Assembly: GCA_003194525.1 (NCBI GenBank)
Contig: NBIV01000195.1
Location: 62,001-126,000, forward strand
DNA from: Gracilariopsis chorda
Lineage: Eukaryota; Rhodophyta; Florideophyceae; Gracilariales; Gracilariaceae
DNA length: 64,000 nt
Direction: 5' to 3'
In this document: one piece after another, positions 2,763-60,000 of the stretch
Position numbering within the stretch: the first letter of the stretch is position 1
Layout: each line of letters opens with the position of its first letter
Made by a program: the position numbers and the translations under genes
The notes under the pieces: generated by a model
The model's input: only the letters and a program-made list of their open reading frames with translations
The model's database searches: none
Told to the model about the DNA's origin: nothing

Positions 2763-5375
2763 TGAACACCAAAATGGACGAAATATGGCCGGCATGTGAC
2801 CGAGATGTGGCCGTTCAAATCCAAAATTTGGGACAGAGATTATCTAGTCGAGATAAGCAAGTTGGGTTCAAAGCAATGTGAACAGAATGTGGCCAGAATG
2901 TTCCAAAAATACGGCTATGATGCCGACCATATTTGATTTCTGTTAGCCAGATACACGTTCTCCCAAATCGTCGACTTAAAGTGTCAAATCTTGGTCATAT
3001 ATTGGACATATTCCGGCCATTTATGAACTTGATAGGGACTTCCTGAGATGTAATCAGGGAAGGAGACCTTCCAGAGAATATCTTGACTCAGTGCAGTCTT
3101 GCATCAAGGCCAACTCTTCGCTATGTGGGTACAATGGTGAGACAAAAATCGAAAATCGACAAAAACGGTGTACAAACTATTGCTGCTAGGTATTTTTTTA
3201 TACGTAATTGGCTCGCAAAAACGCAAAATACAGCGAAATACTAATATTGAAAACCTGCCCAGAATCATTGGAGGAGATGAACCAAGTAAAAGAGTTACGT
3301 TAGTGAACATATGGGCCTCAATGCCAAAAGCGAAAGTCATTGATCATTTAACAGCAGAAATACAGTGGAGGGTAAAAAATCCCCATTACTGGATCGTTAC
3401 ACTTATGAAGATGTGATTGAAGACCATTTAGAATGGATTGTATATCTCTAAAGATCGAAAAGTTTCAAAATTTTAAACACTACTTCAGCCAGAACGATTA
3501 AGTTGCAAATCGTTTAAAAATGCAGCAAAGAGACGAATTGTTGCACTAATGCTAGAGCGTTTAACACAGAACGCAGAATAACGACTGAAAATAGTTATGA
3601 GTATCCTTCACTGTTTTAATATCGTGTAGTACAGTAGCCAATTGGCTAAAGAACTAAATATTCTCAACAGCTTTATTTTGTACATTAGCAAGCCGAATTG
3701 TAAATTGTATTCTTAAATTTCTGTGGGAAACTTCAAATGATTTGGGAAGAAAACATTTTGATACCATATTGCGTAAATGCAACGCAATTTGGTAAAAAAT
3801 ATTGTTCTTTCCAATCCACAAAATTATTTCCCTAAAAGTAGTTTAACATCCTTATCAGTAGGTTTAACGTCATTGTATTGAAGCATTGGTAGCATAGTGT
3901 TTTCAAATCCTTCAAATGTAGAAAAATAATGGTTTTGTTAATTGTCGATTCAAATGGGCATTGAAAATTTTCTTGACCATTGAAAAAACGTGTTGTATTT
4001 TGAATGGATTTGGTTGAAAAGAATACGCTTGATTGAAATCTTTTGAAACTTTGGTTGTGGTTTTGGGCAACATTTATTTTAAATATCTTTAGTGTTTTAA
4101 TATCTGATATGCCAAGTGTCATCTGTCTTTAAAGGAATGCAGCTAGAAGGTTATCAACGTTTTGTTAACTGTTTCATGCTGAAAAAAGGTATGATTTGTC
4201 GTTTGTGTGAGTGCTAGTTTTTCTGTCTATGGTTTTGTATTTGGCGAATGTCTGCTACGGACAACATATATGCTATTTTATAGCACTCGTCTGATAGATT
4301 TGCGCATTCTTTGTGTTGCTAAATTGATATTTCTGAAAGACGTGTCTTTGGCAGAGTACTGGGAAACTTGCTCATACGTATTCAGATTCTGAATTTCAGA
4401 AGTACGTCTGTACCCATTTATATTAGCTAGAGTTAATTGTTCTGCTAGTTCTATTTCGTTGTTTTATTTCGTTGACCGTTAATTATCCACACTTGAACCA
4501 AGCACGTTGAAGCGAGTGCGTTACCTCAAGCGGCCGTATCATAATGTGCGGAGTGCAGACACACCAAATTTCAATAGGAAAACCGGAACCACGATTACGC
4601 GACCCCGTGACCGAGTGCTCGTTGACAAGCTGTCACGTAGACGCGTAACCTTCTGCTGCCATGCGAATCACACCCAAGTTACAGTAACTGTAGGTTTCCA
4701 TCTAAACCCTCGGTACATTGAACCGCTTCCTACGCGAGGAGCGTTCAGAGCAATGTTCAAAATGGGAGGGCATTCCTTACTGTACCGAGTGCTTGCCCAA
4801 CTACGCCGACGGGAAGCAGTTTTTTCTTTTGTCTTTGTTCACAAGCACCGGCAGCTTTACGATGCACTGCAAGCTTTTCCTTTTTGAAGCACATGGTGCT
4901 GCGGGTGATTCTTGTCCTAGCTCAGGCCGAAATGACATACTGTCAATTGCATCTGGTCTTCTTGCCGTTGGATGCAGAAGCACACAACAGTAACGTTGTA
5001 AGGGTGTCGTCGTAACCCAAGTAAAGGGTTCTCGTCAACTATTTCCTTCCTTTGTGACAAATTCAAGATACAGTCTTCTAAGCACATTCTGATTGCGTTC
5101 ATCAATTTGGGTTCCATGTCACTGGATGATACTGCACACAGCAGCACGACACCAATCTTGGACTCGCCGTTGAGTATAATTTTAGTGCGCGTACAGCCAC
5201 ACGCCTTTTGATTGCGTTTCCGGTCTCACCCGTATCGCGTATCAGAGATATCCAAATGGGGCCACATTGTCGTTTATTCGTCAAGTCATGTGGCCGGCAT
5301 TCCTTTCTTTCCTACCTGTAACGCATAACGCAATAACCGGAGGTACCAACAGACAACTATGTGCACGCAAGACGG
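2763..5375. other. Intergenic, no gene recognised
   Basis: About 2.6 kb separates the retroelement relic from the promoter side of the bestrophin gene. The section 3100-4500 is AT-rich with many stops. Open frames at 3168-3416 and 4507-4887 have no family motif I can defend, and the latter overlaps equally long frames on other strands. GC rises from about 4500 towards the bestrophin start. Confidence 0.4.
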
Positions 5376-5550: not shown

Positions 5551-8500
5551 ATGTCGGCTGCAGAACCATCGCCGTCCGAGAGTACCCACCCCGAGTTTGA
5601 TTCCAGGCTCGAACTCGATTCCGAACTCTACAAGGAAACCCCTCTCACCGAGAAAAGCGTAGAAGCGCCGCCTCATGGCCCATCATACCGTCAGTTTGAG
5701 CATCGCGTCGTCGCACTACGTCTTCGCAGCGCAAAGGCCACCGGGCAGCTCGGCTCCGGACAACCAGAGTCTAATCCCGCTGACTACTCCAGCCTGCTGG
5801 CTGTCTTGCAGACCATTCCGTATAGAATTCTCGTGTTTCAGCTCGTATGGAGTACGCTTGTTACCCTCGTAGCGTACGGACTTGCCCCGCGTGAGGATAG
5901 TTCCATCAGTTGGTTCTCTGTTGAGTTCTGGACTTCTCGGTTGGTTGTTTCCTCTTCGGTTTCGTATGGCGTTGGCTGGGCGCTGTTTGTGTTGTTGGGC
6001 TTCTTCATTAGAGAGGCCAGTAACCGTTACTGGGAGGCTCAACTCAACTGGACTCAAATGACGGGAAACCTTCGCCAGACTGTTCGTCATTTGCGACAGA
6101 ACTATCCAGCAGGTACTTGGCATGACAAGGATATCGACCGTATAGTTGCTCATCTAATCGCGTACCCAATCGCATTGAAGATGCTTCTCCGGGGGGAGAA
6201 GGAGAGAGAACAGTTGCAAGGCATACTCCACGAGGATGACATTGATGATGTTCTCAACTCAGATGCCATGCATTGGTATTGCATGCGAGTCGTTCGCACA
6301 TATCTCAGCGCTTCTGAAGACGACCAAGCACACTCTTTTGATTGCGCCGCAGCGGAGAAAACGCCGGCTGGCTGGGGTGTGCGCTACGTAATCATGGACG
6401 TCATAGACGCTGTAGACATGAGTGCAAATGCCATTGTGAAGATCGCTAACTCCAGTCCCTCAGCCGGATACGTCACTCATTTACATATCTTTCTCTACAT
6501 TTGGTTGTTCTTCCTGCCTCTGGCTCTTGTACAGAGCAGCGGATGGTAAGTATCAAGGTAACCCTTTCCTACAGAACCGTCAAGTGTCCTGGTACACTTC
6601 TGCTACATGATCCTAACTAACTGATGCGCATACTGCCGTTCTACCTTCCTTTCCGAGTGTAGGTTCACAATTCTTTGGGCTGTTCTCACTTCATACGGTG
6701 TAGGCATGCTGTTCACTATTGGTCAAGCGTTGACCGATCCTTTTGGTTACGATATGCAGGATGTCAAGCTCAACCACCTTGCCGCAGATACCGCTCTTCA
6801 GGTTCTTAACGCGTTCGCCCGTGATCCGCTGGAGCTCACGACTGTGGTGCAAAAGAATCACGATACACCGTTTTGGTTGGAGAAACCCGTAGGTGGATCT
6901 ACCGAAGATCCAATCAAGCCCCCAAAGGGTCCAGGTCTGCTCAAACGGCTGATCATCAACCGTATCGCAAACATCGGCAAGGGAGTGTTTCTTTACGTCC
7001 TTGTCGTCGTAGTGTGGAGCGCGTTTTTGTTGTTTCTCACATGGGGTAGACGCACAGACGAGACAACATGCAGGTGGTGGTGCATTTATATTCCTGTTGA
7101 TTCCTCAATCACATCCTATGTAAGTCTGGGTATCTTCCTCATTCTCGGCTTTTGGATGAATGTTGCATACAGCCGGTACTGGCGGGCGTTGCAGTTGTGG
7201 CAGAGTAAGATCCGAACCTGCATCGAAGAATTAGCATTTCAGTTCGCAGTTATGTGCAAACCGGGTACCTGGCATGATCGTGATCGAGAGCGCCTTTTCT
7301 CCCACGTAGTTGCACTTTGCTACGCAGCTAAATTCAAGCTTCGGGGAAGCAGAGACACGAGTGAGTTGAACGAATTCCTTTCTCCTCAAGACGTCACTGC
7401 GTTTGACGAGTCCGATGACTTCTTTGTTCATGCCACAGATGTCGTTTTCGGCTATCTCAACAGCGTTGACAGTGCTCACGAAAGCGCTACTCAAGTTTCG
7501 ACGTGCCCTCTCAACTTCACTATCTACACCTTGGGATATACGCTCTGGGGTCTGGAATGGACGATACAAGAGTGCGCAGCCATCCACCAGTTCCCTATAT
7601 CTCCGTCCTTCACCACGCATCTGAAGGTGTTTACGTTCTTCTGGCTGGCTCTGCTACCACTGTCGCTGATAAGCTTCTCTGGGTTTTTGTCGTTCTTGTA
7701 TATCATCCCAATCAGTTACTCAATCATCAACCTCATCAAAATCGGGAGCAACCTTGCCGATCCGTTTGGGTTCGATAAGGAAGACATTCCATTGGACGTG
7801 CTGTGCGATGAAATCAAAACATCTGTTCATAATTTGTACCACGAGACAAAGGGTGGCATGGTTTCATACGTTCGGCCATCGACCTATTCTCGAGAAATGT
7901 TCAGAGCAAGGCAACTTTCTGCGGATCCGGTCACATGTAATGTGGAAGAGCTGAAAGAACCTACAGCCCTATGGCGCAGATGGTTCAGGAAATCGAATAG
8001 CTCTCATGACCAATCTACACATCCCACTGTTGTGGGGTCCTTGAGGTCGCTGTTTGACAAAATGCCGTCGGTATCACTTCGGTACATGATACTGGTTATA
8101 GTATGGACAATTATGGCTGTGTTCTTGTCATATGGGTTGTCGTTTTCATGGTCTGATGAGAAACGCGACCAATGTCTTTGGTGGTGCAGTCCGATAGATG
8201 TTGATGTGAGTGTTCTGGCGAATATCGGGTTCGCTTTATTCATGATTCTTAGTTTCCGCGCTTCTGATGCTATTGGAAGGTATGAGGAGGGTGCGATGCT
8301 CGTCTACGACATTGAAATGAACCTACGAAATCTGGCCATTGAAATCGTGCAGAACTTTCGGGACGGTTTCTTTCATGAGAAGGACAAGGAGAGGATAGTC
8401 GCACACATCGTTCAAATACCACTGTGTTTTCGCGATCGCTTGCTGGGCATCGAAAGAAAGGAAGCGGATGAGAAGGAAGGACTGCTTTCCGATGAAGACA

Positions 8501-11403
8501 GGCACGCTTTCGAGTCGAGTGCTTATCCGATTGAGCATCTTCTTCAGACAGTTGAAGGGTACCTTCTACTTCAAGATTCCCCCTCTCGTGAATATCCCCA
8601 CATCAGTGATGATCGGATAAATGGAGCGCTGAATGGAACCATGTTGAGTAGAATCGCAGCAACCCGTACCACCATTTCCAGGGCTTTGGGTGTGAAGAGA
8701 TTTCCTGTTATTGAGAGCTATACTCAACATCAGCACATGTTCACAGTACTGTGGCTCGGTCTTCTTCCCCTAGCAATGGCACCGAGCACAGGCTTTTTCA
8801 CTATACTGTGGGCTCCGATTATTTCATTTGGCGTGCTTGGTCTTGAAGAGATAGCTGCCAGACTGGTGGACCCGTACGGAAACGATGCGATTGACATTCC
8901 TTTGGAGAAAATGTGTACCGAAGCTGCAGCCGGTGTTCTTGGAGGTGTACAAAGCGTTGAATGGGGATTATCTCGCCACATCCACCCTATGCTTTCAGAC
9001 AACAACCCACAGCTTGGAACAGTTCTTCAGAAGAGATCCGTTGGTAATGAATATACCCTGCCTCATTTCGATGATTCACAGGAGTCCTCAATGTTTGGGG
9101 ATGGCACTCCTGTACGGTTCAGCGGGCCCAAGTCCCCCAAGATGAAGCCTGGGTTCTATGCTCATGTAATGCGCTCTGTTCCGTGGTGGTTGCTGCTATA
9201 CGTAACTGTTTGGACGACGATAGGAACCATCATTTCCTATGCTGCGAGGAAGAGAGGTGACGATGTTGTAGCCAGATGGTGGCAGTCGAACTTCAGTGTT
9301 AACTCGACGGTGGCGACGTACATTTCGTTTGCAGGTACGAATCCTTCATTGGTTGCCGGTCCTTAATGAGATGAAGATACGAGCGACTAACTGTTTTCTC
9401 TACTCGTGTTTGCATTTGGTGTTGTGGACATCAGCGTTTATGCTTCTTGGTTTCTTCGTGAGATCGGCGTTTGTGCGGTACATATCGGCTGGAAGCGTGT
9501 GGGGTGCCCGACTGCGTTCCTCGTGTCACGCACTTGCGACCCAATTCCAAGTACTGTTCGAGGAAGGAACTTTTCATGATGGGGATCACCGTCGGATCAT
9601 TGCGCATGTGGCAGCGATTCCGTTGGTGTTGAAAGCTGAACTTCGCAACTCACGAGACATACGGGAAATCAAGGGGCTGCTGTCATTTGAGGATGTTGCT
9701 CGTATTCAGTGCGCTGATAGTATGGTAAGCCATTGTGTGGACGTCTTACGCTCATACTTCTTGGGTGTACAGAGCGATAATGCTGCGAAGCACAAACCAT
9801 TTCATTTTGGAAGTCGAGTGTCATTTGTGAAGTATGAGATCATTGAGCTAGAGAAGATGATTCGAGAATCCAAGTTCCTCCGATCATTTGAGATTGCACC
9901 AGGGTTCCTGATATTGCTGAACACGTTTCTTGGGCTTTGGTTCCTGATCCTACCCTTTGCTATTGCAGAGCATTCAGGTACGAGCGCATGCGTCGATTAC
10001 AATGTTCAGAGTAGCTACGCGAACAAGTACTAACAATCACCCACTGCCTTGATGGTGCGTACAGGCTGGTTTACTATATTATGGATTCCGATCATTGCGT
10101 ATGGTGTACTAGGGTAAGTTGACGAAACAATTCGTTTACTGCTGTTGCCGAGAGTGAAACCAGTTCACACTAACTTCTTTCATATTGTTGCAACAGAATG
10201 TACTCGATTGCGAAGGAATTACAGTTCCCGTTTGGAACAGATCTGAACGACCTGGATCTAGACACAATGGCCGATGAGATTGTGGCGGACTTGTTGTTTG
10301 TTCAGAAGCACTTGACGCGGAATTCGGAGAAGTTCGTGCGCGCATCCAGCATCGAACCATTCTGGACGGAAAGATCTGACAACGGACAGAAGCCAGTGAA
10401 CAAAGGATTCAAGGAGCGAATGCGCGAGAACTTGAAACTGGCGTTGAACACATTTTCTCTTTGGCAGACAACTGTGATACTGATATGGACTGCGTTGTGT
10501 GTTCTGGCAGCGTGGTTGGTATCTCGGGAATTCCCGTTCTCGGACGAGATTGAAGAAGGGTGTTCGATGTGGTTCTGTTCGCGGATTGCAGTAAGTGGTG
10601 AGGTGAAGGAGTATGTAGGATTTGCGTTGTTCCTACTGCTGGGCTTCCGCCTATATGAGAGCCACGGTCGCTATATGCAGGGAATAGGTATCTGGTCTCA
10701 GATCAAAGGTATTCTGCATCTGCTTTCCAACAGGATTTTCGAATGTTACTACGGCGGGGAATGGCATGAACAGGATGTAGAAAGGGTTGCTGCACATTTG
10801 GCGGCGTTCGCGGTGACGATCATGGGCAAACTGAGGGGCGAAGATTGCGAAGACAGACTAAGGAAAATCCTAAGCGAAGAAGACTGCGACCAATTGCTAC
10901 GCGCCCATGACCGAAGTGATTACTGCTTGGACGTGCTGCACTACTACTTGTCAGAAGGAGATCGTTGGTCTGCTTACAAGGAAAAGAGCCACGCCGGATG
11001 CAACGAGCACTGGATATTCTTTTGGTATTTGAAGGATTTGCGATTTAAGGCGGTGGACTTAGAAGAAATAGTGAACATCCCAATGCCGTATGGATATGTT
11101 CAACATTTGAGGATCTTTCTGTTTATCTGGTTGTTGTTGTTGCCGCTAGGGTTTGTGGAGTCGTCCGGGTGGCTGGCCATACTCTGGATTGGATTTATCT
11201 CGTATGGAATTGTTGGGATTGAGAAGTGGTCGTCCGAGCTGGCGAATCCGTTTGGGAAGGACTTGTCGGACGTGCCGCTGGAAGAAATTGTTGATGAAAT
11301 CTGCGATGTCGTGAAGCAGAACTTGATGTTGTACAAGGATGGGGTACAGCCGTTTATTCGTCAAGAACGCAATTCCTTCCCGCATGTGATGGAATCAGAG
11401 TAG
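5551..11403 (+). CDS. Five-unit tandem bestrophin-like anion channel (1,821 aa, 5 exons)
   Basis: Exons are 5551-6545, 6663-9334, 9435-9977, 10065-10113 and 10197-11403; all phases join without a stop. Five homologous units lie at about residues 85-410, 428-740, 795-1100, 1168-1465 and 1500-1801. Each has a first membrane helix, a second helix ending in L-(G/S)-F-x7-R-Y, a W/F-H-(D/E)-x-D segment followed by a (K/R/D/E)-L-(R/L)-(G/N) turn, a C-terminal membrane pair around (S/T)G(W/F), and an (N/D/F)P(F/Y)G-x-D-x2-D-x-x-L motif at about 357, 698, 1068, 1430 and 1770. These match the bestrophin/UPF0187 family, whose members are Cl-/HCO3- channels built from five single-unit subunits. The Phe aligned with the family's neck Phe84 (human numbering) is present in all five units (about residues 151, 495, 863, 1229, 1570). 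Inference: one chain could make a complete pentamer-like pore. The ATG at 5551 is the first in frame before unit 1; the N-terminus (1-80) is polar with no clear signal peptide. Substrate and membrane are unknown. Confidence 0.88.
6546..6662 (+). other. Intron 1 of bestrophin gene (117 bp)
   Basis: It begins GTAAGT, ends GTGTAG, and contains overlapping CTAAC branch-point motifs at 6613-6621, about 41-45 nt before the acceptor. It splits a Trp codon (TG|G) in the SSGW motif closing unit 1. Splicing joins the SGW to FTILW, as in the uninterrupted units. Confidence 0.9.
9335..9434 (+). other. Intron 2 of bestrophin gene (100 bp)
   Basis: It begins GTACGA, ends ATCAG, and has a GACTAAC branch point at 9385-9391. 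It lies inside the second membrane helix of unit 4. Removing it restores the helix (ISFA joined to AFMLLGFF) that aligns with the other four units; reading through gives a stop within 11 codons. Confidence 0.9.
9978..10064 (+). other. Intron 3 of bestrophin gene (87 bp)
   Basis: It begins GTACGA, ends TACAG and has a perfect TACTAAC at 10028-10034, 30 nt before the acceptor. It splits the Gly codon of HSGW in unit 4, four nucleotides away from the site equivalent to intron 1 in unit 1. Confidence 0.9.
10114..10196 (+). other. Intron 4 of bestrophin gene (83 bp)
   Basis: It begins GTAAGT, ends CAACAG and has CACTAAC at 10168-10174. It leaves a 49-nt micro-exon (10065-10113) that encodes only the last membrane segment of unit 4, GWFTILWIPIIAYGVL. 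The joined protein continues GMYSIAKEL in the same way as the other units. Confidence 0.88.
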
Positions 11404-12846: not shown

Positions 12847-13027
12847 TGTGACGCTGAAAGCATACCTCCCTCCATGGAGGTCTGTTTACTCGGGAAGGTG
12901 ACTCTATTTCAAGGGCACCGTCGTCGTTAATCGTGTGCGTGTCGTGTGGACACTGGTGACAGTTGTAAGGCTCTGAACGTGAACGGAGGTTGCCCCAACT
13001 CTTTGTGTGTTTGTAAGGCTCGTCACA
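12847..13027 (-). repeat. Copia-1 3' LTR (181 bp, with 48-bp insertion)
   Basis: It starts TGTGACG and ends CGTCACA, an inverted terminal repeat. It differs from the other LTR only by 48 bp inserted after GTAAGGCTC near 12973. The insertion ends in a second copy of TTGTAAGGCTC, so an 11-nt flank is duplicated, and it contains CCCCAACTC, the inverse of GAGTTGGGG just inside the element at about 13034. Confidence 0.93.
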
Positions 13028-16000
13028 CTCCCCTGGAGTTGGGGTAAGCTTCGTGGGGTCGTATATGTAGTGCGCGGATCATGCGCACGAATACTTGTCG
13101 CTTCACAGCCTTGGTCATAATGTCCGCGAGCATGTGCGTGGTTGGTATGTGTTTGAGTTGGATGTGTCTTTTGCGTATGTGGTCTTGGATGTAGTGTCGT
13201 CGCAGATCGATGTATTTCCGTTTCTTTGTCGGTGCGGTGTTATTAGCTACGTCAATCGCCGATGTGTTATCGATGTGCAACGTGGTTGGCGTCGTTGTCG
13301 TGCATCCCATGTCGAAGAGGAGTCGCCTTATCCATTGGATTTGTTGTGCTGCGGAGCAGGAGGCGACGTACTCGGCTTCGCAAGTAGAGAGAGCAGTGAT
13401 GTGTTGTTTTTTGGAGTACCACATAAATGGAGTTCCGTTGAAGCAGTGTACTGTGCCTGACATGGATTTGCGATCCGTAGTATCGCCTGCGTGGTCTGCA
13501 TCCGAGTAGGTGTGGTAGTACCGCAATAGGCTGGAAATTTCAAACGAGACGGTTGTGTGTTTCATTAATATGCCAAGGTTAGTGGTGCCTTTGAGATACC
13601 GCATCAAGCTTTTCAGTGCTTTCCAGTGTCGGTCGCAGGGATTGGAGAGGGCCGCGGCGAGTTTGTTGACGATGTAGAAGATGTCCGGACGGGTGGAATC
13701 TGCGATGTAGCGAAGTTCTCCAACGATTGATTGGTACCACTCATTAGAATATGGGAATGGTTTGTCGAGGTTAGTGGTTTTGTGCAAATCTATGCCATCG
13801 GGGAAAGGTGTTTGTTTCGGGTTGCAGGTTTCGAGCTTGAGTCGATGTAAGAGGGCAGTTATGGCGTGTGGTTGTGAGAGGTGAATATCGCCGTTGCCTG
13901 TGCGCTGTACTTTCCATCCGAGGTAATTGTTTGGGAAACCAAGACGCTTCACGACTTTGTATTTGTCTAGCAAAGCGTGGTATAGGCTGTCAATTTCTTG
14001 TGTTGATGTAGATGTGACTTTAAAGTCGTCGATTGTGACACATATGAAAGTGGTTTCTCCGGCGCAATGTTTGATAAATAAGCATGGGTCTGCGTCGGAT
14101 TGTGTGAATCCGATGGATTTCAAGTACTTGGTGTTCTTCGTTAGGTAAATGTGTCCTGCTGATTTTCCACCGTATAAGTTACCTATTAGGAGTCCGGTGT
14201 GGTTGTGATGTTTAAATGTGCCGTCGAATTGGGGTAGCTCCTTCACGTAAACTGGTTTCTCGTATTCAGATTTCTCCTCTAGGAAAGCGGACTTGATATC
14301 GAAATGTTCGACATGGAGCCGAAAGGTAGCCGCCATTGCCAGTAGTAGGCGGCTGGTGACTCGATCGGCTGTATACGTGGTGGTTTTGTTGGGGTCATAA
14401 TGAACGTGTGGCACCATTTTGTCTCCTCTTACGACGCAGCGCGCACGCCTGCTGATGATTTTGTTCGAGGTATCGCGTTTGTACATGTAGGTCATGCGGA
14501 GTGGGAGCGGTTTGATGTGTGCTGGAACTTGCGAATTCGGTATCCATTTGATGATGCTGTTGTCCTTGATGTATTGTAGTTCGGAGTGGTGGGCCTTGCG
14601 CCAGTGATCAGCATCGGGGTATTTCCTCGCTTGTGATCGTGATAGGGGTGGTGGTGTTGTGTATGTGATCCTGAGCGGGATAGGGTGAGGTGTAAAGGCT
14701 TTATGCGCGTGTGAGACGCCTACTACGGTCTTTGATGGGTCGGTGGGTGGGTGGTACGGTTTGAAGTCTTTGATCCGCGTATGAAAGACACGGTTCGTCT
14801 TTGTTTCGAGGACTGCGATTGTGGAGTCGTTGAGAGGGTGTAGGTAGCGACAGAGCGTAGCTCGATGTTGCAGTTTCTTGCGGGTTGATTTGTTGGTTTG
14901 TGTTGGTGTTGTGCCGTACTGGCCAAAGATGAATAGATCTCGTGAAGACGGAGTTGTGCCGAACCAGTCGGTGTATGGTATTCGATTAGTACTAGAGTGC
15001 AATGTTCGGTTGTATTTGTGAGTTATGTCTCGCAGTGCGTCTTCCCAATATTTGTCGGGGAGATTACTATGTGTCAGGGCGGCTCTTGTGGCGGCCAGAA
15101 GCGTTGAGTTGATACGCTCTGCTATTCCGTTTTGTTGTGGCGTGTATGGAAGAGATGTCGAGTGGTGTAGGTCGTGTAATTCGTACACGTCGTGGGCTTT
15201 TCTTGATATATATTCTTTCGCGTTGTCGGTACGCAGTGCTTGGACCTGTCGACCAGTAGAATGGTGTATATCCTTGAGTACTGAGCTGATGCGGGCGGGT
15301 AGGTGTTGGCGGCTCGGCATGAAGTCCAGGATGAGGAATCGGGATTCATTGTCAATGAAAGTAGTGAAATAGGTATTTCCTTGCCGGGATTTGGGTGTAA
15401 TGGGGCCACATATGTCGCTGCCGAGGGACATGTGGGCAACTCGAGGTCTGGTGATGCGCTTGTATGGTGTGGGACGTTGTTTGGCTAGACGGCAGGGTTG
15501 GCACGTAATTGTGGGAATTGGGGATTTCAGTGATGCCGGGAGGTGTTGTAGCAGGGATCTTTTTGCCATTTGTTGTAGGGTATGTGGCTTGACGTGATTG
15601 AAGATGAGATGGAACTTGTGGAAGTCGTGGGTGATCTTGGGGTTTTCGTCGGTCGGAAAAGGATGCGATGTTGGGATTTGTATGATTGGTGGTTTGTGTG
15701 GGATCGTTGAGGCAGTGATGTGTTCTGTGGCTCTTTTACCATTGTGTTTGTATCGGGGTTTATGCTGTTGGTGTATTTTTTGGGGGGTGGGGACTGGTGT
15801 AGTACGAGAGGCAAAGACAGAGGTAGTTTGTTTGTTGTGGCGGTCGAGGATGTAGAGTCCGTTGTGGAATGTGGCTGTTCCAATACAGGAAGGGAAACGT
15901 GGGTTTAGAGTGTTGATGATGTAGGCCCGATGTGGAGTGAATGATACCAGGCCCCACTTCTTTGCTGTGTCATGTACTGATAACAGGGGTCTTGAGATCC

Positions 16001-17483
16001 TTGAGTTGGCCACAGCGGGTACATCAAATTGATATCCAACATTAGTTGTCACCTGAATAGAACCGGCGTGCGTTGCGTGAGAGGTAGTTTCGGTAGCAGT
16101 TTTTGTTAGTATGGGGTTTTCCAGCGCGTGCATCGTTATCGTAGGTGTGGGAACGTGGGTGGGCGATGCTGCTGAGTCAAGAGCAAACGTACTCGTTACG
16201 TCATTGTCGTCCTCGTTTTCGTAGGGCGTGAAGGGGTCCTCGGTAGCGACTGCGTTCGCCTCCGTTTTGCGTCGCATGCGTCGACCGGGAGTGCGCTCCC
16301 TCATCGTGGCGAATTGTTGTTGCGGCTGTGGTTGAGGAAACACAGGAGGAGTGTAGAAGGGGTTCGCTCTCTGGGGCGTCAATTCTGATGGGGCTGGGAA
16401 GGACGGTGGTGGTGTCGCGTATGGAGGATACTGAGGTGGGCTGTACATATAATACGGGACCCGAGAGTAAAACTGCTGCTGCCACATTGGAGGCGCGTAG
16501 AAACCACGTCCACGTTGACCTCGCCCACGGCCTCCCCTGCGGCCACGAGGGCGTGCGCGGGGGGCTCTTGATTCAGTCGAAGTTGAGGTACTGGCAGTAC
16601 CGCTGCGGAGGTTGGCCCTGCCTTCTGCTCTCTTCAATCTTGTCTCGAATTCGGCGATAGTTTTGAGAACACTGTTGGAATCGTACCAAGTGTCAACGAT
16701 AGTTTGAAAATATGGAATTCCGCCGAGGCCTCTGATCATGAAGTCTATCGTGGTTGATTGTAAGGTAGCGTTGGGAAATTTGGTTGTAACCATCTTTGAT
16801 CGGACTGCTCTATGTTTTTTCACGTATTCTGCGATGGACATGTCTGGTTCAAGAGTAGTATATTCAGCCTCTTGGCGGAGTAACTGGTGGTCAGCGGTTG
16901 TCGCAGATTGGAGACTTGAGGATACAGCGTTGATGATCTCTATGGGCTGTGTGTCTGGTCCGATGTCGATGGGTATGTCGAGATCTTCGGGGATACTGCG
17001 CATCATATGTGTGCGTAATTTAGCTCTTTGTCGGCGATAGAGATTGTGGTTTGCACTCGTTGGGGGAGGGGGTTGATGTTCTTCGGCGATAAGGTTTTCC
17101 ATGTCGTTCATTATCACGAAATCTTCTATGGCCATTTTCCATGCATTTAGATTGGTACCATCTTCTTTCAGGGTTGGAAAGGCTGGCGCATGCACGTCGG
17201 TATAGTTGGACGGAGCAGCCATTGGTGTTGGTAGTAAAGTGTGGGGAATGTTCGTTGCCACAGCGGGAGGGGTTGCGAGAGGCGTTGGGCTTGCAGGAGG
17301 AGTTATTCCGGTATTTGGCTCGGTTTGTTGAGTGTGGCTCATTTTGTGAAAGGTATGTGCGGGTTGAGGCTTTGTGGTTTGGCGTTGAGGTGTGGAGATA
17401 TAATTTTGGTAGCGTTGTGGCCTGTTGTTTCGTGTCGTTCGCTTTGGGTATCTATTGGGGTGGGATGTGGTGGGCTTAGGCAT
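13023..17483 (-). CDS. Copia-1 Gag-protease-integrase-RT-RNase H polyprotein (1,486 aa)
   Basis: A single frame with the usual copia order. The Gag-like region spans about residues 90-300 with no CCHC zinc knuckle; instead an arginine/glycine-rich stretch (about 305-327, RPRGRRGGRGRGQRGRG) probably binds RNA. The protease motif LDSAAS is at about 435-440. Integrase catalytic residues are D690 (SDICGP), D753 (RTDNAKEY) and E789 (GIAERIN). Reverse transcriptase carries VTIDDF at 1149-1154, where copia elements normally have YVDD. RNase H starts at SDADHAGD (about 1327) and includes STCEAEY. I chose the ATG at 17483, the first after the primer-binding site; the upstream extension of the frame runs through the LTR and is probably not translated. 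The stop TGA lies inside the first bases of the 3' LTR. Confidence 0.93.
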   Translation of the reverse strand: MPKPTTSHPNRYPKRTTRNNRPQRYQNYISTPQRQTTKPQPAHTFHKMSHTQQTEPNTGITPPASPTPLATPPAVATNIPHTLLPTPMAAPSNYTDVHAPAFPTLKEDGTNLNAWKMAIEDFVIMNDMENLIAEEHQPPPPTSANHNLYRRQRAKLRTHMMRSIPEDLDIPIDIGPDTQPIEIINAVSSSLQSATTADHQLLRQEAEYTTLEPDMSIAEYVKKHRAVRSKMVTTKFPNATLQSTTIDFMIRGLGGIPYFQTIVDTWYDSNSVLKTIAEFETRLKRAEGRANLRSGTASTSTSTESRAPRARPRGRRGGRGRGQRGRGFYAPPMWQQQFYSRVPYYMYSPPQYPPYATPPPSFPAPSELTPQRANPFYTPPVFPQPQPQQQFATMRERTPGRRMRRKTEANAVATEDPFTPYENEDDNDVTSTFALDSAASPTHVPTPTITMHALENPILTKTATETTSHATHAGSIQVTTNVGYQFDVPAVANSRISRPLLSVHDTAKKWGLVSFTPHRAYIINTLNPRFPSCIGTATFHNGLYILDRHNKQTTSVFASRTTPVPTPQKIHQQHKPRYKHNGKRATEHITASTIPHKPPIIQIPTSHPFPTDENPKITHDFHKFHLIFNHVKPHTLQQMAKRSLLQHLPASLKSPIPTITCQPCRLAKQRPTPYKRITRPRVAHMSLGSDICGPITPKSRQGNTYFTTFIDNESRFLILDFMPSRQHLPARISSVLKDIHHSTGRQVQALRTDNAKEYISRKAHDVYELHDLHHSTSLPYTPQQNGIAERINSTLLAATRAALTHSNLPDKYWEDALRDITHKYNRTLHSSTNRIPYTDWFGTTPSSRDLFIFGQYGTTPTQTNKSTRKKLQHRATLCRYLHPLNDSTIAVLETKTNRVFHTRIKDFKPYHPPTDPSKTVVGVSHAHKAFTPHPIPLRITYTTPPPLSRSQARKYPDADHWRKAHHSELQYIKDNSIIKWIPNSQVPAHIKPLPLRMTYMYKRDTSNKIISRRARCVVRGDKMVPHVHYDPNKTTTYTADRVTSRLLLAMAATFRLHVEHFDIKSAFLEEKSEYEKPVYVKELPQFDGTFKHHNHTGLLIGNLYGGKSAGHIYLTKNTKYLKSIGFTQSDADPCLFIKHCAGETTFICVTIDDFKVTSTSTQEIDSLYHALLDKYKVVKRLGFPNNYLGWKVQRTGNGDIHLSQPHAITALLHRLKLETCNPKQTPFPDGIDLHKTTNLDKPFPYSNEWYQSIVGELRYIADSTRPDIFYIVNKLAAALSNPCDRHWKALKSLMRYLKGTTNLGILMKHTTVSFEISSLLRYYHTYSDADHAGDTTDRKSMSGTVHCFNGTPFMWYSKKQHITALSTCEAEYVASCSAAQQIQWIRRLLFDMGCTTTTPTTLHIDNTSAIDVANNTAPTKKRKYIDLRRHYIQDHIRKRHIQLKHIPTTHMLADIMTKAVKRQVFVRMIRALHIRPHEAYPNSRGV

Positions 17484-17509
17484 GTGTGGTAGCGTGGGGG
17501 CCCATAACC

Positions 17510-17642
17510 TGTGACGCTGAAAGCATACCTCCCTCCATGGAGGTCTGTTTACTCGGGAAGGTGACTCTATTTCAAGGGCACCGTCGTCGTTAATCGTGTG
17601 CGTGTCGTGTGGACACTGGTGACAGTTGTAAGGCTCGTCACA
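17510..17642 (-). repeat. Copia-1 5' LTR (133 bp)
   Basis: TGTGACG...CGTCACA, identical to the 3' LTR except for the 48-bp insertion there. It contains the palindrome CCTCCATGGAGG. At 133 bp it is short for a copia LTR. The second target duplication GGGAG follows at 17643-17647. Confidence 0.94.
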
Positions 17643-17647
17643 GGGAG

Positions 17648-18401
17648 GGAGCCGGTTCCAACGGCACCGGAGCCCTCTGGAAGCACAAGCCACAAACGTT
17701 GTGGTGTGTCCAAGAAAGGGTTGGGAGTTGCCGACGGTACTGATATGCGGCTGGAAGCGCAAAAGGGTTGGCTCCCCCCTTCGGGACTTTCAGGGCACAA
17801 ATGTGTGGCTTGCGCGAACGTATGCAAGCCACAACGCCCAACTGTGGCGGGTTCTTTTAGGGTTGAGGGGGCCTCCTGGACGGATGCGGCCATTGTATGC
17901 GGCTCCATCGTGCAGTCAGCGGGAAGGCGGAGGGTTGTGGCACACAGCGACAAGGATGGCGTCCAAAGTGTGAGGTGGCGAGGTGTACGGTCGGTAAATG
18001 CAGTATCCGCACTGTCAGCATCAACTTGAACGCGATGAGGAGGGAGGAAGGCGCGACGAGGCCTCTCGCGCAATGGTGCTCTGCATACATCGTGACGCAA
18101 GCCGCGGCGCGTGTCCTGCGCGTGTGGTGCACGCCACGCGTGCGTGAAGAAAGCGCTGTAGCGCGCACTCACAAGTACCAACAACTCGTCGGTGCACTCA
18201 TATCGTGCAGTACGCGCGCCGCGCTTCCTTGCCACCAGCACGCGCTGTGCTCCACTCGCCTGCGTCACCTCCTCGCCGCACTCGTTCTCCGCTGCACCGC
18301 GCAGCTCAACTACATACAGTACCTTCGGTACCCAACGAAATTCGCCTCCTCACCTTCCGCACCCCCCCCGCCCCTCATACCGTGCGTCTCCTCTGGAGCC
18401 C
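17648..18401. other. Upstream region of the first orphan membrane-protein gene
   Basis: It is markedly GC-rich, with open frames on several strands that look like by-products of high GC. It presumably contains the promoter and 5' UTR of the gene starting at 18402. A 70-codon in-frame upstream extension to 18192 has no counterpart in the paralogue and is rejected as coding. Confidence 0.5.
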
Positions 18402-29472: not shown

Positions 29473-30770
29473 TGGTTTCGCGATGGCCACAGGCATGTGA
29501 TGAAGAGTCTGCACATTCGCAGATGTACGTTGCGTGTCATGAAGGAACAGCACATGTTCGTTCCTTCGAATGCGCGATAATGCGATATACAACTGACCGG
29601 CGCAGAAGAAGTTGGATCACACATTCACAATCAAGCCATCGAAGGTCTTTCTCTGTCATTTCTGAACGGTAGCTGCAAACGCAAGACGAATGGGGAACTG
29701 CCTTCGAATCATGCGAATGTCTGCAAAAGAAAACTCAAAGTCGATACGATGTAGGAGCTTTCGCTCCAGAACCTGTCCGTTTTCGTCGAATCGAGCCACC
29801 TGCATGGTATACTGATCAACACGCATGACTACGAACAGCTTCCCGTTGACCACAGTGGGATAGATCACGTTCCGGATTACTATAACTGGCACACCGATCT
29901 TCAAGTCCAAATTAAGGGGCGGTAGTCCAGTAGACGCATAGTGATATGCAAACTCGGGAACCATAGTACTGGCGATGTCACACTCTGGGTTCTGTCCACT
30001 ATCAGGCTGCACAGTAGTCACTGAAGGAAGATTGAAGCGCTCACCAGGAAACAGATCGAACGCTGCTGCATTATGTTCGTCAACAAACTGGTTTGTGGAC
30101 ACAAGAAGCATTTGGCTGAGATCCGCATCTCCCTGCGTCGTGTTGTGAGCCACTTCCACAGTAATTGATGAGGGGTTTGCATGCCAGCAGCAGATCTGAG
30201 TGGTAGTGGAGTGTTGTTGGATATTGTGCTGCGTGCATTGTAACCTAACAGCGACGGAAATGCCGGATCACTGGCTCGCCGTACTTGTTTGGTGAGGTAC
30301 CGCACTTGAACCGAGCACAATGGCCACAAATCACTCTTCCACGGTAACTCGTTGAGAATTATTGTGTAGAATCGTCTCACATTTCCACTTGGCTCGGCCT
30401 CCATGTACACCTGCGCCACCACTGGAAGCAGTCGTCCACCGTGCGGTTCTGAGATCTCCACCACTCGTCGATACATTTCTTGCTTTCGTTGCTGCTCATG
30501 CCCTGTATGCATGTCGCTACATAGCGCCTCCCAGTTTTCGACGGCCATTTTCTCTGGGTCTGCGCACTTTTGGTATAGTTTGACAACCAATCGTTGCAGC
30601 TCGGAGGCCGTGCTGTTCATCGTCACTGCTTCTTGAAATGCAATATCAAACTCGGATCCGTCCCCGAGCAGTCCGATTTCAATCGCCGTTTCACGATTCG
30701 TTCCATACTTCTGTCCGTTGAAAGTCCTTGCACCTTTATAAGAGGTCGAGGCGTGATTCATAAGCAGCAA
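29473..30770 (-). pseudogene. Helitron A PIF1-type helicase, 5' core deleted
   Basis: The first part (30018-30770) reads through the Rep-helicase junction (LLLMNHASTSYKGARTFNG) and then passes directly to GRLLPVVAQVYM and LPWKSDLWPLCSVQVRYL, the middle of a PIF1 helicase. The Walker A and Walker B segments that should lie between are missing. The second part (29656-30159) has LKIGVPVIVIRNVIYP, RRQFPIRLAFAATVQK and, after a stop, FFCAGQLYIALSRIRR, the classical C-terminal PIF1 motifs. It would unwind DNA during rolling-circle transposition if complete; it cannot do so here. Confidence 0.82.
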
Positions 30771-30836
30771 GCAGAGAGCAAACAGCTCAAGTTCGTACGG
30801 TGAAACACCTCTGATCCTTGCAACGTATTGCTTGTT

Positions 30837-33292
30837 TTACATGCGCTCTACCACGTACATAGGTGGATCGCAGTGGTCTGTTGGCACCTGAGTGCTGTCT
30901 CCGTCGTGTTGATTAAGCACACGTGCAGGGAGCATGCGATACAAGCGCATCTTTTCAAAATAAGAAAGGTAGTCGAGGTTTGCATATGCTTCGGGCCTGG
31001 CAAAGTATCTCTCCAGTGTAGACGGCTGCGATGCAGAAAGGAACTGATTTGAACCTCCGAGCAGAAATGTCCGCCTTACGTCCAAGTTAATGACCAGTCG
31101 CTCTACTTTTGGTAGGATGTTCACATGTCGAAACTCGAAAACTCTCCAAGCTGCGTTGACGGCACCCACCACACGTGCTCGCATGTACGCACGAATGTCG
31201 TTCTACGCCTGCGGCTCTTGTTGCTAGTCGTTGCGTGTGCCTGTCTCATTAGCATCACTCACATTGAGCACCACCTCCTGAGCTTTGAACTGCTTAAAGG
31301 TGCCTTTCATCAGATAACCCACTATGTCTCCTCCTTGCGTGCGTTCTAAGGTGATATGAGAGCGGTACTTCTTGGTCAGAGTTGGGTTGTAGGGCAATAT
31401 CTTGAGGTCTTTTTGCCTTCTTATGCAGTAGATCACGCGATTCGCGCCTTCTTCAATGTACGTCTCCGGCACCATCATGTTGCTTTCATATCCAAACTTG
31501 CACCGCCCCAGCGCGATTCCAGCATTAAGGAGAGTGGCGGTACCTGTGCATGGGCCGATTGAGGCCACGCAAGGCGTCTTCTTCGCCTCAAAGGGCACGT
31601 TCTGCACGAATCAGCTCATTGATCACATTAAACTATTCAATCACGCCTCTTTCGAGCCAGACGAGCATGTGGTGATGAGGCCCATTGCGTTCTTGAAAAT
31701 CAAGTTCTAATGCAAGCCTCAGGCACTCCATTCTGAAAAAGTGCTCCGAGTTATTCTTAAAGTTCTTTATGAATTTGTTTGCCTACATTTCTTAAACCCT
31801 TGCAATCAGATCCGGTCGTTCAAACGGTCGAGGGCAGTTACAATGTGCTGTAAATGCGCTCCGATTGGCGGTGGTTATATCAAGGTGCTGAATGTTCTCT
31901 CACCAGATGTTCATTGTGATTGTAATGAAAAGAGAAGGCGCTCTCCTCCGTGCTACAATCGCCTGTAAATCTATTCGCTTGTTCTTCCAGTACACGGCTG
32001 AGTTGACAGAGTCATTGGGCAGAAATATGCGTCCCATTTGTGCGAACTGTGATGGTGACATATGACATATTTGCTCTTGTGCTTGCTGGATCTCTTGCTC
32101 CTGTACAACACGGGCCTGTTTTTCTCTCTCCAAGAAACGTAGTTGCATGTCGTCAACGTTTGTGTGTGTGCAGAGCATCCACATCTGCATCAACTGGCTA
32201 CTGTTTAGAAGGATATTATCAGAGTAAAGACATCGCTTCGCGTTCTCAGCCCAGATGAGCTTGGGGAGCTTCCAATCCGTTGGCGCTGAGACCTGAGCGT
32301 TGCTTCGTGGAGATCCTTGCATGCAGAAACAGGCCAATGTCAAAGGGTTCATGCTGATCACCGTACGGGTAGAGAAGAGGGAAATTGCCCTTCTCTGCAA
32401 GTTTGGATGCCGTTGTTAGAAGTCGGTACCACACTTGCGCATTGTTTGCGGCATTCGCAGTCGCCCCTGCTCCAGCAACAGCAGCAGTCGTCACTGCAGC
32501 TTGTTCTACTGTTACCGTTCCTTCTACCAAGCGTGGTACTTGAGACACCACTCGTTACAAGCCAGTTGGATCAACCACGAGCGTTCTCAACATGGTTGGC
32601 CCCCCACTAGGAACATATTCAGGGAGAGGGCCAGCACCTGGATGGGAAGCACTGACTGTAGCACCTCGGGTTCTTTCGTATCCACGTACGAATACCCCTT
32701 GGTACACTGTTGCACTCTGATATCCACGGCGGTCTCCGTATTTTTATTGTTGTTGTTGTTGTTGGTGGTGTTGCGTGCTAAACATGGATCCGTAACGCCT
32801 GCGCACCACGTCTAGCTTCGGCTGGATCACATCGTACAACTTGAGTACGATGTCTCTTACGTTTATTTCCTGAATGAACGCACGCAGATTGGCACGCGAA
32901 TAGTGAGATGGATTCATGAAAGGCGAACCGGTACCCCACAGAAAGCTGAAGCACGTGTTGTTCTGGTTCTGCGTGGGGAGAGCCAGAACAGCGTTGGCCT
33001 CAAGTAGGAGAAAAGAAGGGCCACCTCCCGTCACATACGACATGTCTATAAACGCTTGCGTCGTCGCGAAGAGTGTATTAAACATGAGGAAATGGGATTG
33101 AAACGCTCTCAGGCTATAAAGACTTCGAACCAACTCGTTGCTATGAACTCTGCGGAAAGTTTCGCCCCATCCTGACATTCTTCTCATTCCACAGCAAACT
33201 CCGGTGGTCTCGTTTCCAAGCAAACCGCATCCACAGTACTTGCAGTTAAGAATTATCAATGCCCAGTCCGGGTAAGAGCAGGAGGAGAGCAT
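30837..33292 (-). pseudogene. Helitron A Rep (HUH endonuclease) remnants
   Basis: Pieces in order: a cysteine-rich start (CKYCGCGLLGNETTGVCC, 32744-33292); LLYPYGDQHEPF (32246-32551); Rep motif 1, RIFLPNDSVNSAVYWKNKR and APSLFITITM (31900-32400); the HUH motif PHHHMLVWLERGVIE, whose His codons lie at 31669-31677; then ILPYNPTLTKKYRSHITLE with GGDIVGYLMKG (31224-31607). The usual K-Y-x-x-K-Y tyrosine pair reads GYLMKG, so only one tyrosine position survives. The region 30837-31184 (WRVFEFRHVNILPKVERL) is the Rep-helicase connector. Stops and frameshifts separate the pieces. Confidence 0.82.
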
Positions 33293-57069: not shown

Positions 57070-60000
57070 CTATACAGTCTCATCAACATCAAGTACCATG
57101 TTATGGCAAATTTTCTTGTGACTCACGGCGTTGAGCGGCTTTGTGTGCACATCCGCAGCATTGGATGTCGTCTCAACCTACTCCAAGACAACATCACCAC
57201 GTTCTACATGATCCCGAAGAAAATGAAAAAGTACATATATATTCTTCGTGCGCTCACTGCATACTGTGTTACTGCTCAGACGAATTGGGCCCTGCTTGTT
57301 ACAACAAATCACCATTTCCTTTCCCTTCCAAAAACTAAATTCTTTCATGATCGATCCTAACCAAAAAGATTCTCGAACCGCATAAGAAAGTGGTGCATAC
57401 TCGGCTTCAACGGTACACTGTGCTACAAGAGGTTGCTTTTTGAACCTCCAGCTCACAGCTGCGCCAGAATTAATGAAAACAAAACCACCTATAGACTTGC
57501 GATCAACTGTATCGCCTGCAAAATCAGAATCTGAGAACCCCAACATCTTGCTCCTCTGCTTTGAAAACACCAATCCGACATTCTGCTTTCCTTTCCAATA
57601 CCTGAAGACTCGCTTCGCTGCCTTCCGATGCTCTTGACTGAACCTGTACATAAAGCGGCTCAAGTAACTTACAGCAAACGAAATGTCCGGTCTGGAGGTA
57701 CTCGAGAGGTATATCAGTTCACCAACAAGTTTTCTGAATGGGTGGCAGTTCTCCTCCTCAGATGTGCTTGAGATCAGAGAACAGGGAAGCACAATGGAAG
57801 TTCTAATGACTGCACAAGATCCCATGTCAAATTGGTGCAACAGACGACTGATCATGCCTGCGTTGTGAAATTTCAGTGTACCACTCTCGCTTTGGACCAC
57901 TGTAATCCCGAGGAACTTGGCCTCATCGGTCTCTACTCGAAGATCAACATGATTCTCCAAGAAAGAAACCACCCTCTGCAGCTCTTCTGATCTTTGACAG
58001 GAAACCAGCACATCATCAACAGAAAAGGCCAATACCAACAAGTAGGACTCGTTACGTATGAAGTAGAGTGCTGGATCTTCCTGAGAGCACGTAAAGCCAA
58101 ATTGAAGCAAGATGGGATGAATAAAGTTATGAAAAGCTCTTAATGCCTGCTTCAAACCATAAATAGCACGCTTGAGTCTGTACACATTCTTGTTTCACTC
58201 TTGCACTTTAAAACCAGGGAACTGATGCATGTATACCTGTTCTTCAAGCTGTCCATACAGAAATGCGGCTTTGATATCCAAGCGAATGAATTCCATTTGT
58301 GGTCATCAATGTTGGATAAAACTAGTCGCATAGTAGCATACTTGACAACGGGGGAAAAGATCTCATAATAGCCAGTCCCGAGTCATTGCATGAAGCCTTT
58401 TGCAACAATTCGCGCTCTATGCCTCGTGAAAACTCCACTCCAGTTATGCTTACGATCAAACACCCACCGGCACTCAATTGGTACAACATTGGGAGGGAAC
58501 TTAACCAGTTCAAAAACATCTCTACTCGTCAGATTGTTCACTTTAATTTTCATTGCTGCCCTCCATTCCTTCCGCTCAGAAGAGTTCATCGCCTGTTCAA
58601 AGGTTTGTGGCAAGTTATCTTCAGTCACTTCTAACATGCAATTCGCCATAAACGTCTCGAGCGAATACCGCTATGGAGCGGAACGCTGGCGAGCGGACCG
58701 TCTCAGAGGTTGGGCATCGGTAGCATCAGGTGCTAGCAGCGGGTCTTCATTTGCTTCAACAGCATCAACACCTTCATAGAAGTCTCCTGCAGCCACAGAT
58801 TCTTCCATGTCGGGCTCTTCCATTCCAGATTCTAGATCATCGAAGAGGTTTTCCACGCTGAAATGTTCCACAACTTCTTCCTTTCCATTCCCAGTCTTCC
58901 AGCCAAAGCACCATTCATCAAGCTTCACATCACGAGATATTGCAAAGCTTCTCGACTTGGGGTAGAAGATTTTGTAAGAATTACATCTCTCAAAGCCGAC
59001 TAGGTGAGAACTTTCCACTTCTTCGCTTCTTAGGAATGTGAACGTATGAATTACATCCAAATATCCTGACATGGGACATATTTGGCTTTCTTTCCCACAC
59101 AGCTTCAAAAGGAGTCTTTCTAGTCGTAACAACGCTGGAATACATTCGGTTCCTCAAGAGATTAGCAGTGGTGACAGCCTCTGCCCACTATTTTTCGTAA
59201 CGAGCTTCGGGTATGTTGTGAAGCATTGCTCTGGCGGAGTTGTTCAAAGTCTTGTTCAATCTTTCCGCCTTACCGTCCGATTCAGGGCTGTATGGCGGAG
59301 CAGGTTCAGAGAGTGTTCCCCTATGCTTAAGCCAGTTCTGCATATCTTGATACATGCATTCCTTCGCGTTGTCAATATGAAATGCTCTGAAAGGCTTCTG
59401 GGCTGTGGCTTCAAACTCTACAATCATTTCCTTAACAGCGTGCGGAAATTCTGACCGAAGACTCAAGAATCGAACAAGAGAGTATTCAGTAAACTCATCG
59501 TACAGTGTAACGTAATAATTTGCTCCACTGAAGGATGTGCACTTCACTGGACCTACGACGTCTGTGTGAACGAGTTCACCAGGTGTATGGCATCGGTCAC
59601 GAGTCACTGTTGGTCTTACATCATGAATTGACTTTGACACTCGACATGACTCACAGGAATTCCAGTCAGAGACACTTGTAAAGCCAACTCCATTAACCAG
59701 GGGAACAGTTGCTCTCAAATTGGATGCACAAATATGACCAAGAGGACTGTGCCATCGTATCGACTTCTCATTCTCGGATGCCGCAACCAGCGCTTTTGTT
59801 GTATATGATTCAGAACTAGGACACCGAATCTCTTCATAAATTCCATTCCTACGCCTTCCAATAGCTACAAGAACAATCTCCTTAGTCTTCGGATCGCACA
59901 CCTTACAAAGTCTCTGCCCTCCTTCATCTAACTGGAACAGAACGCTGTACCCTTTCCTCTGTAGGGCACTGACTGACAGTAGGTTACATCTGAGCTTCGG

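Follow-up and report, generated by a model that had tools for sequence, protein, structure and literature searches.

Can a single polypeptide supply every subunit of a bestrophin ring? Bestrophins are typically pentameric, as stated in an excerpt of PMC11638005. The question is raised by a single locus in the window, the 64-kb stretch of DNA that was analyzed, which lies on contig C195 of the 91.3-Mb assembly of Gracilariopsis chorda, a florideophyte red alga. An initial annotation of this DNA described a gene whose product carries five bestrophin units in one chain. Here, we describe the gene, its relatives, and what its five units suggest about the channel that it may encode.

A five-exon gene with five bestrophin units

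The initial annotation had proposed a five-exon gene with a frame of 1,821 codons, and its coordinates, exons, and frame are correct (Table 1). The spliced translation consists of 1,821 codons followed by one terminal stop, and internal stops are absent. A protein database search returned a deposited "hypothetical protein BWQ96_08484" (P0001) of 1,821 aa that is 100% identical over the full length. All four unit junctions are exonic and are found in exons 2 and 5, while introns occur only within units 1 and 4. Because the junctions are inside exons, mis-splicing of separate tandem genes cannot explain the linkage of the units. The 71-residue N-terminus of the protein is hydrophilic, and no obvious signal or transit peptide was seen in it when the sequence was judged by eye. 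The sequence CTAAC is present in all four introns of the gene, within ~60 bases of the 3' end, and by eye it resembles a strong branch-point consensus.

Table 1. Features of the five-unit gene, with positions counted from the first nucleotide of the window
Feature	Position	Strand	Basis
Whole gene, 1,821-aa five-unit bestrophin BWQ96_08484	5551..11403	+	Spliced translation; 100% match to P0001
Exon 1: hydrophilic N-terminal 71 aa and most of unit 1	5551..6545	+	Spliced translation
Intron 1, within unit 1, 117 nt	6546..6662	+	GT..AG; site common to C75 and C202 genes
Exon 2: end of unit 1, units 2 and 3, start of unit 4, linkers 1-2, 2-3, and 3-4	6663..9334	+	One open frame
Intron 2, within unit 4, 100 nt	9335..9434	+	GT..AG; site common to paralogues
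Exon 3: middle of unit 4	9435..9977	+	Spliced translation
Intron 3, within unit 4, 87 nt	9978..10064	+	GT..AG; site common to paralogues
Exon 4, within unit 4, 49 nt	10065..10113	+	Spliced translation
Intron 4, within unit 4, 83 nt	10114..10196	+	GT..AG; site common to paralogues
Exon 5: end of unit 4, linker 4-5, unit 5, stop	10197..11403	+	Spliced translation
Unit 1, residues 72-400, neck W/V/F	5764..6867	+	Pfam, unit borders, neck mapping
Unit 2, residues 420-741, neck L/L/F	6925..7890	+	Pfam, unit borders, neck mapping
Unit 3, residues 780-1106, neck F/M/F, PYGND tail motif	8005..8985	+	Pfam, unit borders, neck mapping
Unit 4, residues 1155-1470, neck F/M/F	9130..10347	+	Pfam, unit borders, neck mapping
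Unit 5, residues 1489-1813, neck F/L/F	10402..11376	+	Pfam, unit borders, neck mapping

The claim of five bestrophin units in one polypeptide was borne out. The Pfam family PF25539 (Bestrophin_2) matches all five units with 106-133 bits against a cut-off of 27 (E 2e-30 to 2e-38). Each unit is so far over the cut-off that a chance match is excluded. The units do not reach the cut-off of the other bestrophin family, PF01062 (best 12.4 bits vs 24.2). Compared pairwise, the five units are 27.6-33.9% identical (E 7e-33 to 7e-52), which marks them as old, diverged duplicates and not a recent tandem repeat. In the unit alignment, 29 columns are invariant across all five units. The hydropathy peaks fit four helices per unit with both ends on one side, but not all four are resolved in every unit.

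Two details of the initial annotation needed correction. A PFGxD tail motif had been ascribed to every unit; it is present in units 1, 2, 4, and 5 (PFGYDMQD, PFGFDKED, PFGTDLND, and PFGKDLSD), but unit 3 has PYGND (PYGNDAID). Linkers of 50-90 residues had also been given. Outside the conserved 326-column unit, the linkers of the window protein are 19, 38, 48, and 18 residues long, and the longer range is a better fit with the shorter Pfam core. In animal BEST1, the Ca2+ clasp is a run of acidic residues after PFG. This run is absent from all five units of the window protein, and activation by calcium in the manner of BEST1 was dropped for that reason.

The solved sequences that were matched (n=22) comprise 19 bacterial-type bestrophins, one rhodopsin-bestrophin fusion, and two plant-type bestrophin rows. 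Twenty of these 22 nearest solved sequences belong to entries in which five chains are given for that single sequence. The unit profile aligned with the solved bestrophins only over the part between roughly the second helix and the tail (profile 60-308 of 326), and this partial alignment also fits four helices per unit. PDB 5x87, 4wd7, and the 6iv series, which we take to be the bacterial bestrophin KpBest, are of the same family as the window protein by sequence (best E 2.8e-17 with the chain and 1.5e-29 with the unit profile), and the neck stretch aligns. KpBest has one unit per chain and five identical chains, whereas the window protein has five different units in one chain.

Other algal bestrophins differ from the window protein as well. 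The BST proteins of Chlamydomonas and diatoms are plant/green-type channels with a single unit. Orthologues of plant/green-type BST are absent from red algae, according to an excerpt of PMC11142338. Bestrhodopsin (PDB 7pl9) resembles the window protein in that its very long chain includes an algal bestrophin unit (E 1.2e-24 with the unit profile). Unlike the window protein, it carries rhodopsin; a scan of the five unit pieces detected no rhodopsin family, and the N-terminal 74 residues and the linker parts outside the scan are too short for one. An excerpt of PMC12291454 describes rhodopsin-bestrophin fusions in which a bestrophin is linked to one or two rhodopsins, so that the pentamer contains 5 or 10 rhodopsin modules.

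Copies and relatives of the gene

The five-unit bestrophins are a real, conserved family. A whole-assembly search of G. chorda with unit 1 gave 29 matches. The PF25539 family search gave 27 genome matches and was also positive in two of 14 controls, and the PF01062 family search had no match in the G. chorda genome and none in the 14 controls. An intact five-unit gene is found on C75, where the gene model encodes 1,827 aa that are 90% identical to the window protein. Another is found on C202, where the gene model encodes 1,806 aa that are 63% identical over 1,800 columns. Both genes have the same four intron sites as the window gene. When 20 kb of the window was compared to a 9-kb C75 piece, the DNA match extended from 5617 to 11403, with none outside. 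Since the DNA similarity is confined to the gene, the window and C75 copies are separate loci. Between the window gene and this 90%-identical, C75-type copy (L021), dS is 0.64 at the N-terminus, drops to 0.06 in unit 4, reaches 0 in linker 4-5, and is 0.15 in unit 5. The drop in dS along the pair, with DNA similarity stopping at the stop codon, is perhaps the result of gene conversion.

The remaining unit-1 matches are single-unit or broken in appearance (C125 on both strands, C10, C337, C72 twice, C318, C86, and C311). The pieces of the C125 minus-strand gene span most of the single-unit protein P0071 (370 aa) at 37-63% identity. This gene and P0071 are the nearest single-unit relatives of the window protein, from which they differ in having one unit, and each presumably forms an ordinary homopentamer. 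On C337 (L028), overlapping frames at 4214-4985 of the minus strand group with C202 unit 5 in the tree described below, and they are apparently a copy of the last part of a five-unit gene that has decayed. At three places, two on C72 and one on C318 (L023, L024, and L025), a bestrophin-like fragment with two stops is found inside a 6.4-7.4 kb stretch that is >99% identical among them. This bestrophin piece therefore seems to travel with a repeat. C86 and C311 hold a similar pair of bestrophin fragments.

Beyond this genome, a whole-chain search found 39 proteins. These are the window protein, one protein of Gracilaria domingensis (1,859 aa), four of Agarophyton chilense, the transcript-derived P0005, and 32 others from contigs. 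The initial annotation had suggested looking for the same five-unit architecture in related genomes, and it is present at two further G. chorda loci, in the one G. domingensis and four A. chilense proteins, and on many further contigs. The named hosts of five-unit relatives are all Gracilariaceae and include two genera besides Gracilariopsis. Labeling with position-specific profiles identified all five positions in 32 of the 39 proteins. The other seven are without one end: P0005, P0011, P0025, P0036, P0038, and P0039 are without later units, and P0019 is without unit 1. Of the 39, 22 start within unit 1 at model position 251-274, and five end at position 73 of unit 4. As these ends are near the intron 1 and 2 sites, the sequences are read as exon-bounded frames of genomic DNA.

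Two further searches were done with shorter profiles. The first used a 2-unit profile on candidates of ~380 to 1,210 aa, of which the best 8,000 were scored. It found 21 proteins (two already known), all of them consecutive pieces of the five-unit architecture. The search with a single-unit profile found 25 proteins, among them the bacterial-type single units P0081 and P0082, the single-unit protein P0071, and P0083, whose type is ambiguous. The 79 sequences found, together with the C75 and C202 models, compose a set of 81, from which P0071, P0081, P0082, P0083, and a duplicate window model are excluded.

The order of the units is the same throughout this set. Four or six units at random in relatives had been named at the outset as a pattern contrary to a one-chain ring. 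That pattern was not seen: a complete, ordered set of five is present in 34 of the 81, and the remaining 47 consist of consecutive sub-runs or lone pieces, many of which end at intron sites. Every sequence is a consecutive run of U1-U2-U3-U4-U5 except P0004, where two pieces were called for unit 5. Among 220 junctions, 219 are in order (56 are 1>2, 59 are 2>3, 57 are 3>4, and 47 are 4>5), and the one 5>5 junction is that of P0004. Nine of the 81 have one unit piece only. We take these nine for exons, some of them from contigs equal in size to that of a longer match, and a true single-unit protein among them is possible. Complete chains with two, three, four, or six units did not turn up in these word-limited searches, which could miss exceptions.

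P0005 is transcript-derived by its record name and is the only relative of that origin with multi-unit length. It joins U1-U4 across the intron 1 and 2 sites and leaves the frame in the exon 4/5 region, where by eye its last residues resemble exon 5 in another frame. Among the relatives found, a complete in-frame five-unit transcript is absent, P0005 being the sole multi-unit transcript and limited to U1-U4. Two more G. domingensis sequences, P0056 (567 aa, U2-U3) and P0079 (181 aa, U5), are each on a contig of 40,275 and look like pieces of a second five-unit gene of this species that was split in annotation. When contigs of bacterial and archaeal genomes were scanned with the unit profile, there were 54 pattern matches and no relatives.

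Divergence of the units and the pore neck

A maximum-likelihood tree was built from 58 sequences: 54 units from 12 proteins, chosen for spread, and 4 single units. In this tree, U1, U2, U3, and U4 each form one clade with support of 100/99 or better, and U5 forms one clade (100/99) that also contains the C337 piece. The position-wise clades indicate that the five positions had been established by the time these gene copies and species diverged. There is no sign of unit shuffling in the tree sample of 12 proteins. The long-branch P0082 and GcC10 and the decayed GcC337 leave the root of the unit tree unsure, and an order of duplication is not claimed.

Comparison of the window gene to C202 gives dN values of 0.266, 0.304, 0.246, 0.174, and 0.268 for units 1-5 and of 0.42-0.93 for the linkers. 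For this pair, dS is saturated in units 1, 4, and 5 and is 3.0 in unit 2 and 2.8 in unit 3. Comparison to C75 gives a dN/dS of 0.21 overall and of 0.17, 0.11, 0.22, 0.47, and 0.26 for units 1-5, where the 0.47 of unit 4 rests on few changes. The low unit dN with C202 and the dN/dS with C75 indicate that every unit is constrained. For unit 4, constraint is least clear in the close pair (C75) and most clear in the distant pair (C202). Covariation was also computed between units 2-5 in 35 sequences; neighbor pairs were not favored over others, and the result is uninformative. The enrichment in the top 200 pairs was 1.01 for units 2-3, 0.99 for 3-4, and 0.80 for 4-5, and it was 0.98 for 2-4, 0.70 for 2-5, and 0.82 for 3-5.

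The pore neck was located by alignment to KpBest, in whose numbering we take the neck positions to be 62, 66, and 70. These positions map, through the aligned IAxAIFLGF stretch, to the residues given for each unit in Table 1, and the neck is hydrophobic at all three in all five units of the window protein. In relatives, neck residues were counted in 219 rows, after 83 were dropped for gaps or unclear borders; these counts, and those of the cysteine pairs below, exclude P0071, P0081, P0082, and P0083. Position 62 is W in 15/15 U1, L in 55/57 U2, F in 54/59 U3, F in 27/37 U4, and F or Y in 51/51 U5. In most rows, position 66 is V in U1, L in U2, M in U3, and L in U5, with T or S in 17/37 U4, 3/57 U2, and 1/15 U1. 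Position 70 is F in 14/15 U1, 53/57 U2, 57/59 U3, 36/37 U4, and 43/51 U5; exceptions are S, K, or N in 4/51 U5, H in 1/57 U2, and T in 1/37 U4. The neck tiers of relatives thus appear mostly hydrophobic and largely position-specific, which is a description only because the relatives are not independent.

In the upper tier, one W and one L replace two F, and the summed side-chain volume becomes 964 vs 950 cubic angstrom. This near-unchanged tier volume, drawn from few lineages, fits all five units facing one pore. The neck of the single-unit P0071, FALFLLLGF, is F/L/F, like that of unit 5.

A close cysteine pair, with 2-5 residues between in a loose pattern, is found near the second helix, in the loop between the first two helices. 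It is present in 22/56 U2, 55/59 U3, and 50/50 U5, in 3/57 U4 and 0/13 U1, and in the single-unit P0071. The pair of U2, U3, and U5 is possibly a disulfide.

A proposed one-chain channel and its alternatives

The number of units per chain, five, is the ring number of known bestrophins, and we infer that the ring closes around one pore. The gene probably (about 78%) encodes a natural covalent bestrophin concatemer, one chain of which folds into a single pseudo-pentameric channel. We hold it nearly as probable that one polypeptide forms the entire five-fold ring, composed of five diverged subunits in obligatory order, and that this gene family has been kept in red seaweeds.

In the proposed arrangement, a single 1,821-residue chain would supply all five subunits of one pseudo-five-fold ring around one pore. 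The ring order would be fixed as U1-U2-U3-U4-U5, with U5 contacting U1. Both termini of a bestrophin unit are cytosolic, so soluble linkers can join neighbors without extra membrane spans. Linked neighbors would be at high local concentration and would assemble in a single order, resulting in an obligatory heteropentamer. Because the units are specialized at fixed positions, the channel would be a built-in heteropentamer. Its neck would be mixed and mainly hydrophobic, with an upper tier of W, L, F, F, and F/Y. The gene probably arose through successive internal duplications of a single-unit bestrophin. Each chain would form one ring, and the product would act as an ion-selective channel in a cellular membrane. 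Its selectivity may be of either type: KpBest is cation-selective, and BEST1 is anion-selective.

Ring subunits are joined in one fixed-order chain in the four-repeat Na+ and Ca2+ channels, as compared to the tetrameric K+ channels. The evolutionary idea is the same in the window protein, though the four-repeat channels are four-fold and unrelated and the window protein is five-fold. We know of no natural five-fold case of ring-subunit concatenation. In the excerpts of open-access full texts among the matches listed, there is no description of a multi-unit bestrophin or a natural bestrophin concatemer, and bestrophin together with Gracilaria had no open-access full-text match. If the one-chain channel is real, covalent bonds fix both stoichiometry and order, and each subunit is free to specialize. 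The protein would then be a natural template that allows one bestrophin ring subunit to be changed at a time. Moreover, it would show a route from a homopentamer to a heteropentamer, with apparent single-unit relatives persisting in the same genome.

The alternative that survives best, though unlikely, is that chains interlock, with each pore formed by units of at least two chains (for instance, five chains sharing five pores, or domain-swapped dimers) and fusion serving to cluster them. Single-unit bestrophins and rhodopsin-bestrophin fusions do assemble from separate chains, and linkers can reach 109 residues beyond the unit. However, complete chains were found only with five units, a number that clustering does not require, and a ring of five U1 copies would have five neck tryptophans and would probably be occluded.

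It is less likely still that the chain is cut in its linkers to yield five different subunits, which would then form an ordinary heteropentamer. The faster evolution of the linkers than of the units between the window gene and C202, and their variable length, would agree with cutting. Some residues recur by eye in linker 3-4 of relatives, and a cleavage signal was not noticed, though outside any systematic search; both points count weakly against it. Marginally less probable again is a protein that is no longer a channel, acting instead as a membrane scaffold or sensor made of bestrophin units. No member is known to have activity, and no paper on the five-unit protein was found among the open-access full-text matches listed, but 29 columns are invariant across the five units, and the neck, which a pure scaffold would not require, largely keeps its hydrophobicity. 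Though gene prediction can fuse tandem genes, an assembly or gene-model artefact joining adjacent single-unit genes is excluded at the DNA level by junctions within exons and by the agreement of three loci and other species.

The one-chain channel thus remains the preferred reading, and the surroundings of its gene were scanned for a partner. Of 19 neighboring frames, four match transposon families (three copia-type and one Helitron-like), one has a weak, sub-cut-off Pif1-type match, and 14 have none. There was no match to an Rfam family and no tRNA. Ty1/copia-type retrotransposon frames (RVT_2, rve) are located on the minus strand at 13023-17789 and 57178-60198, one of them a 1,588-aa frame and one in pieces. 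Helitron-like pieces occupy 29656-32415 of the minus strand, with Helitron_like_N at 31900-32415 and a Pif1 2B match barely below the cut-off at 29656-30267.
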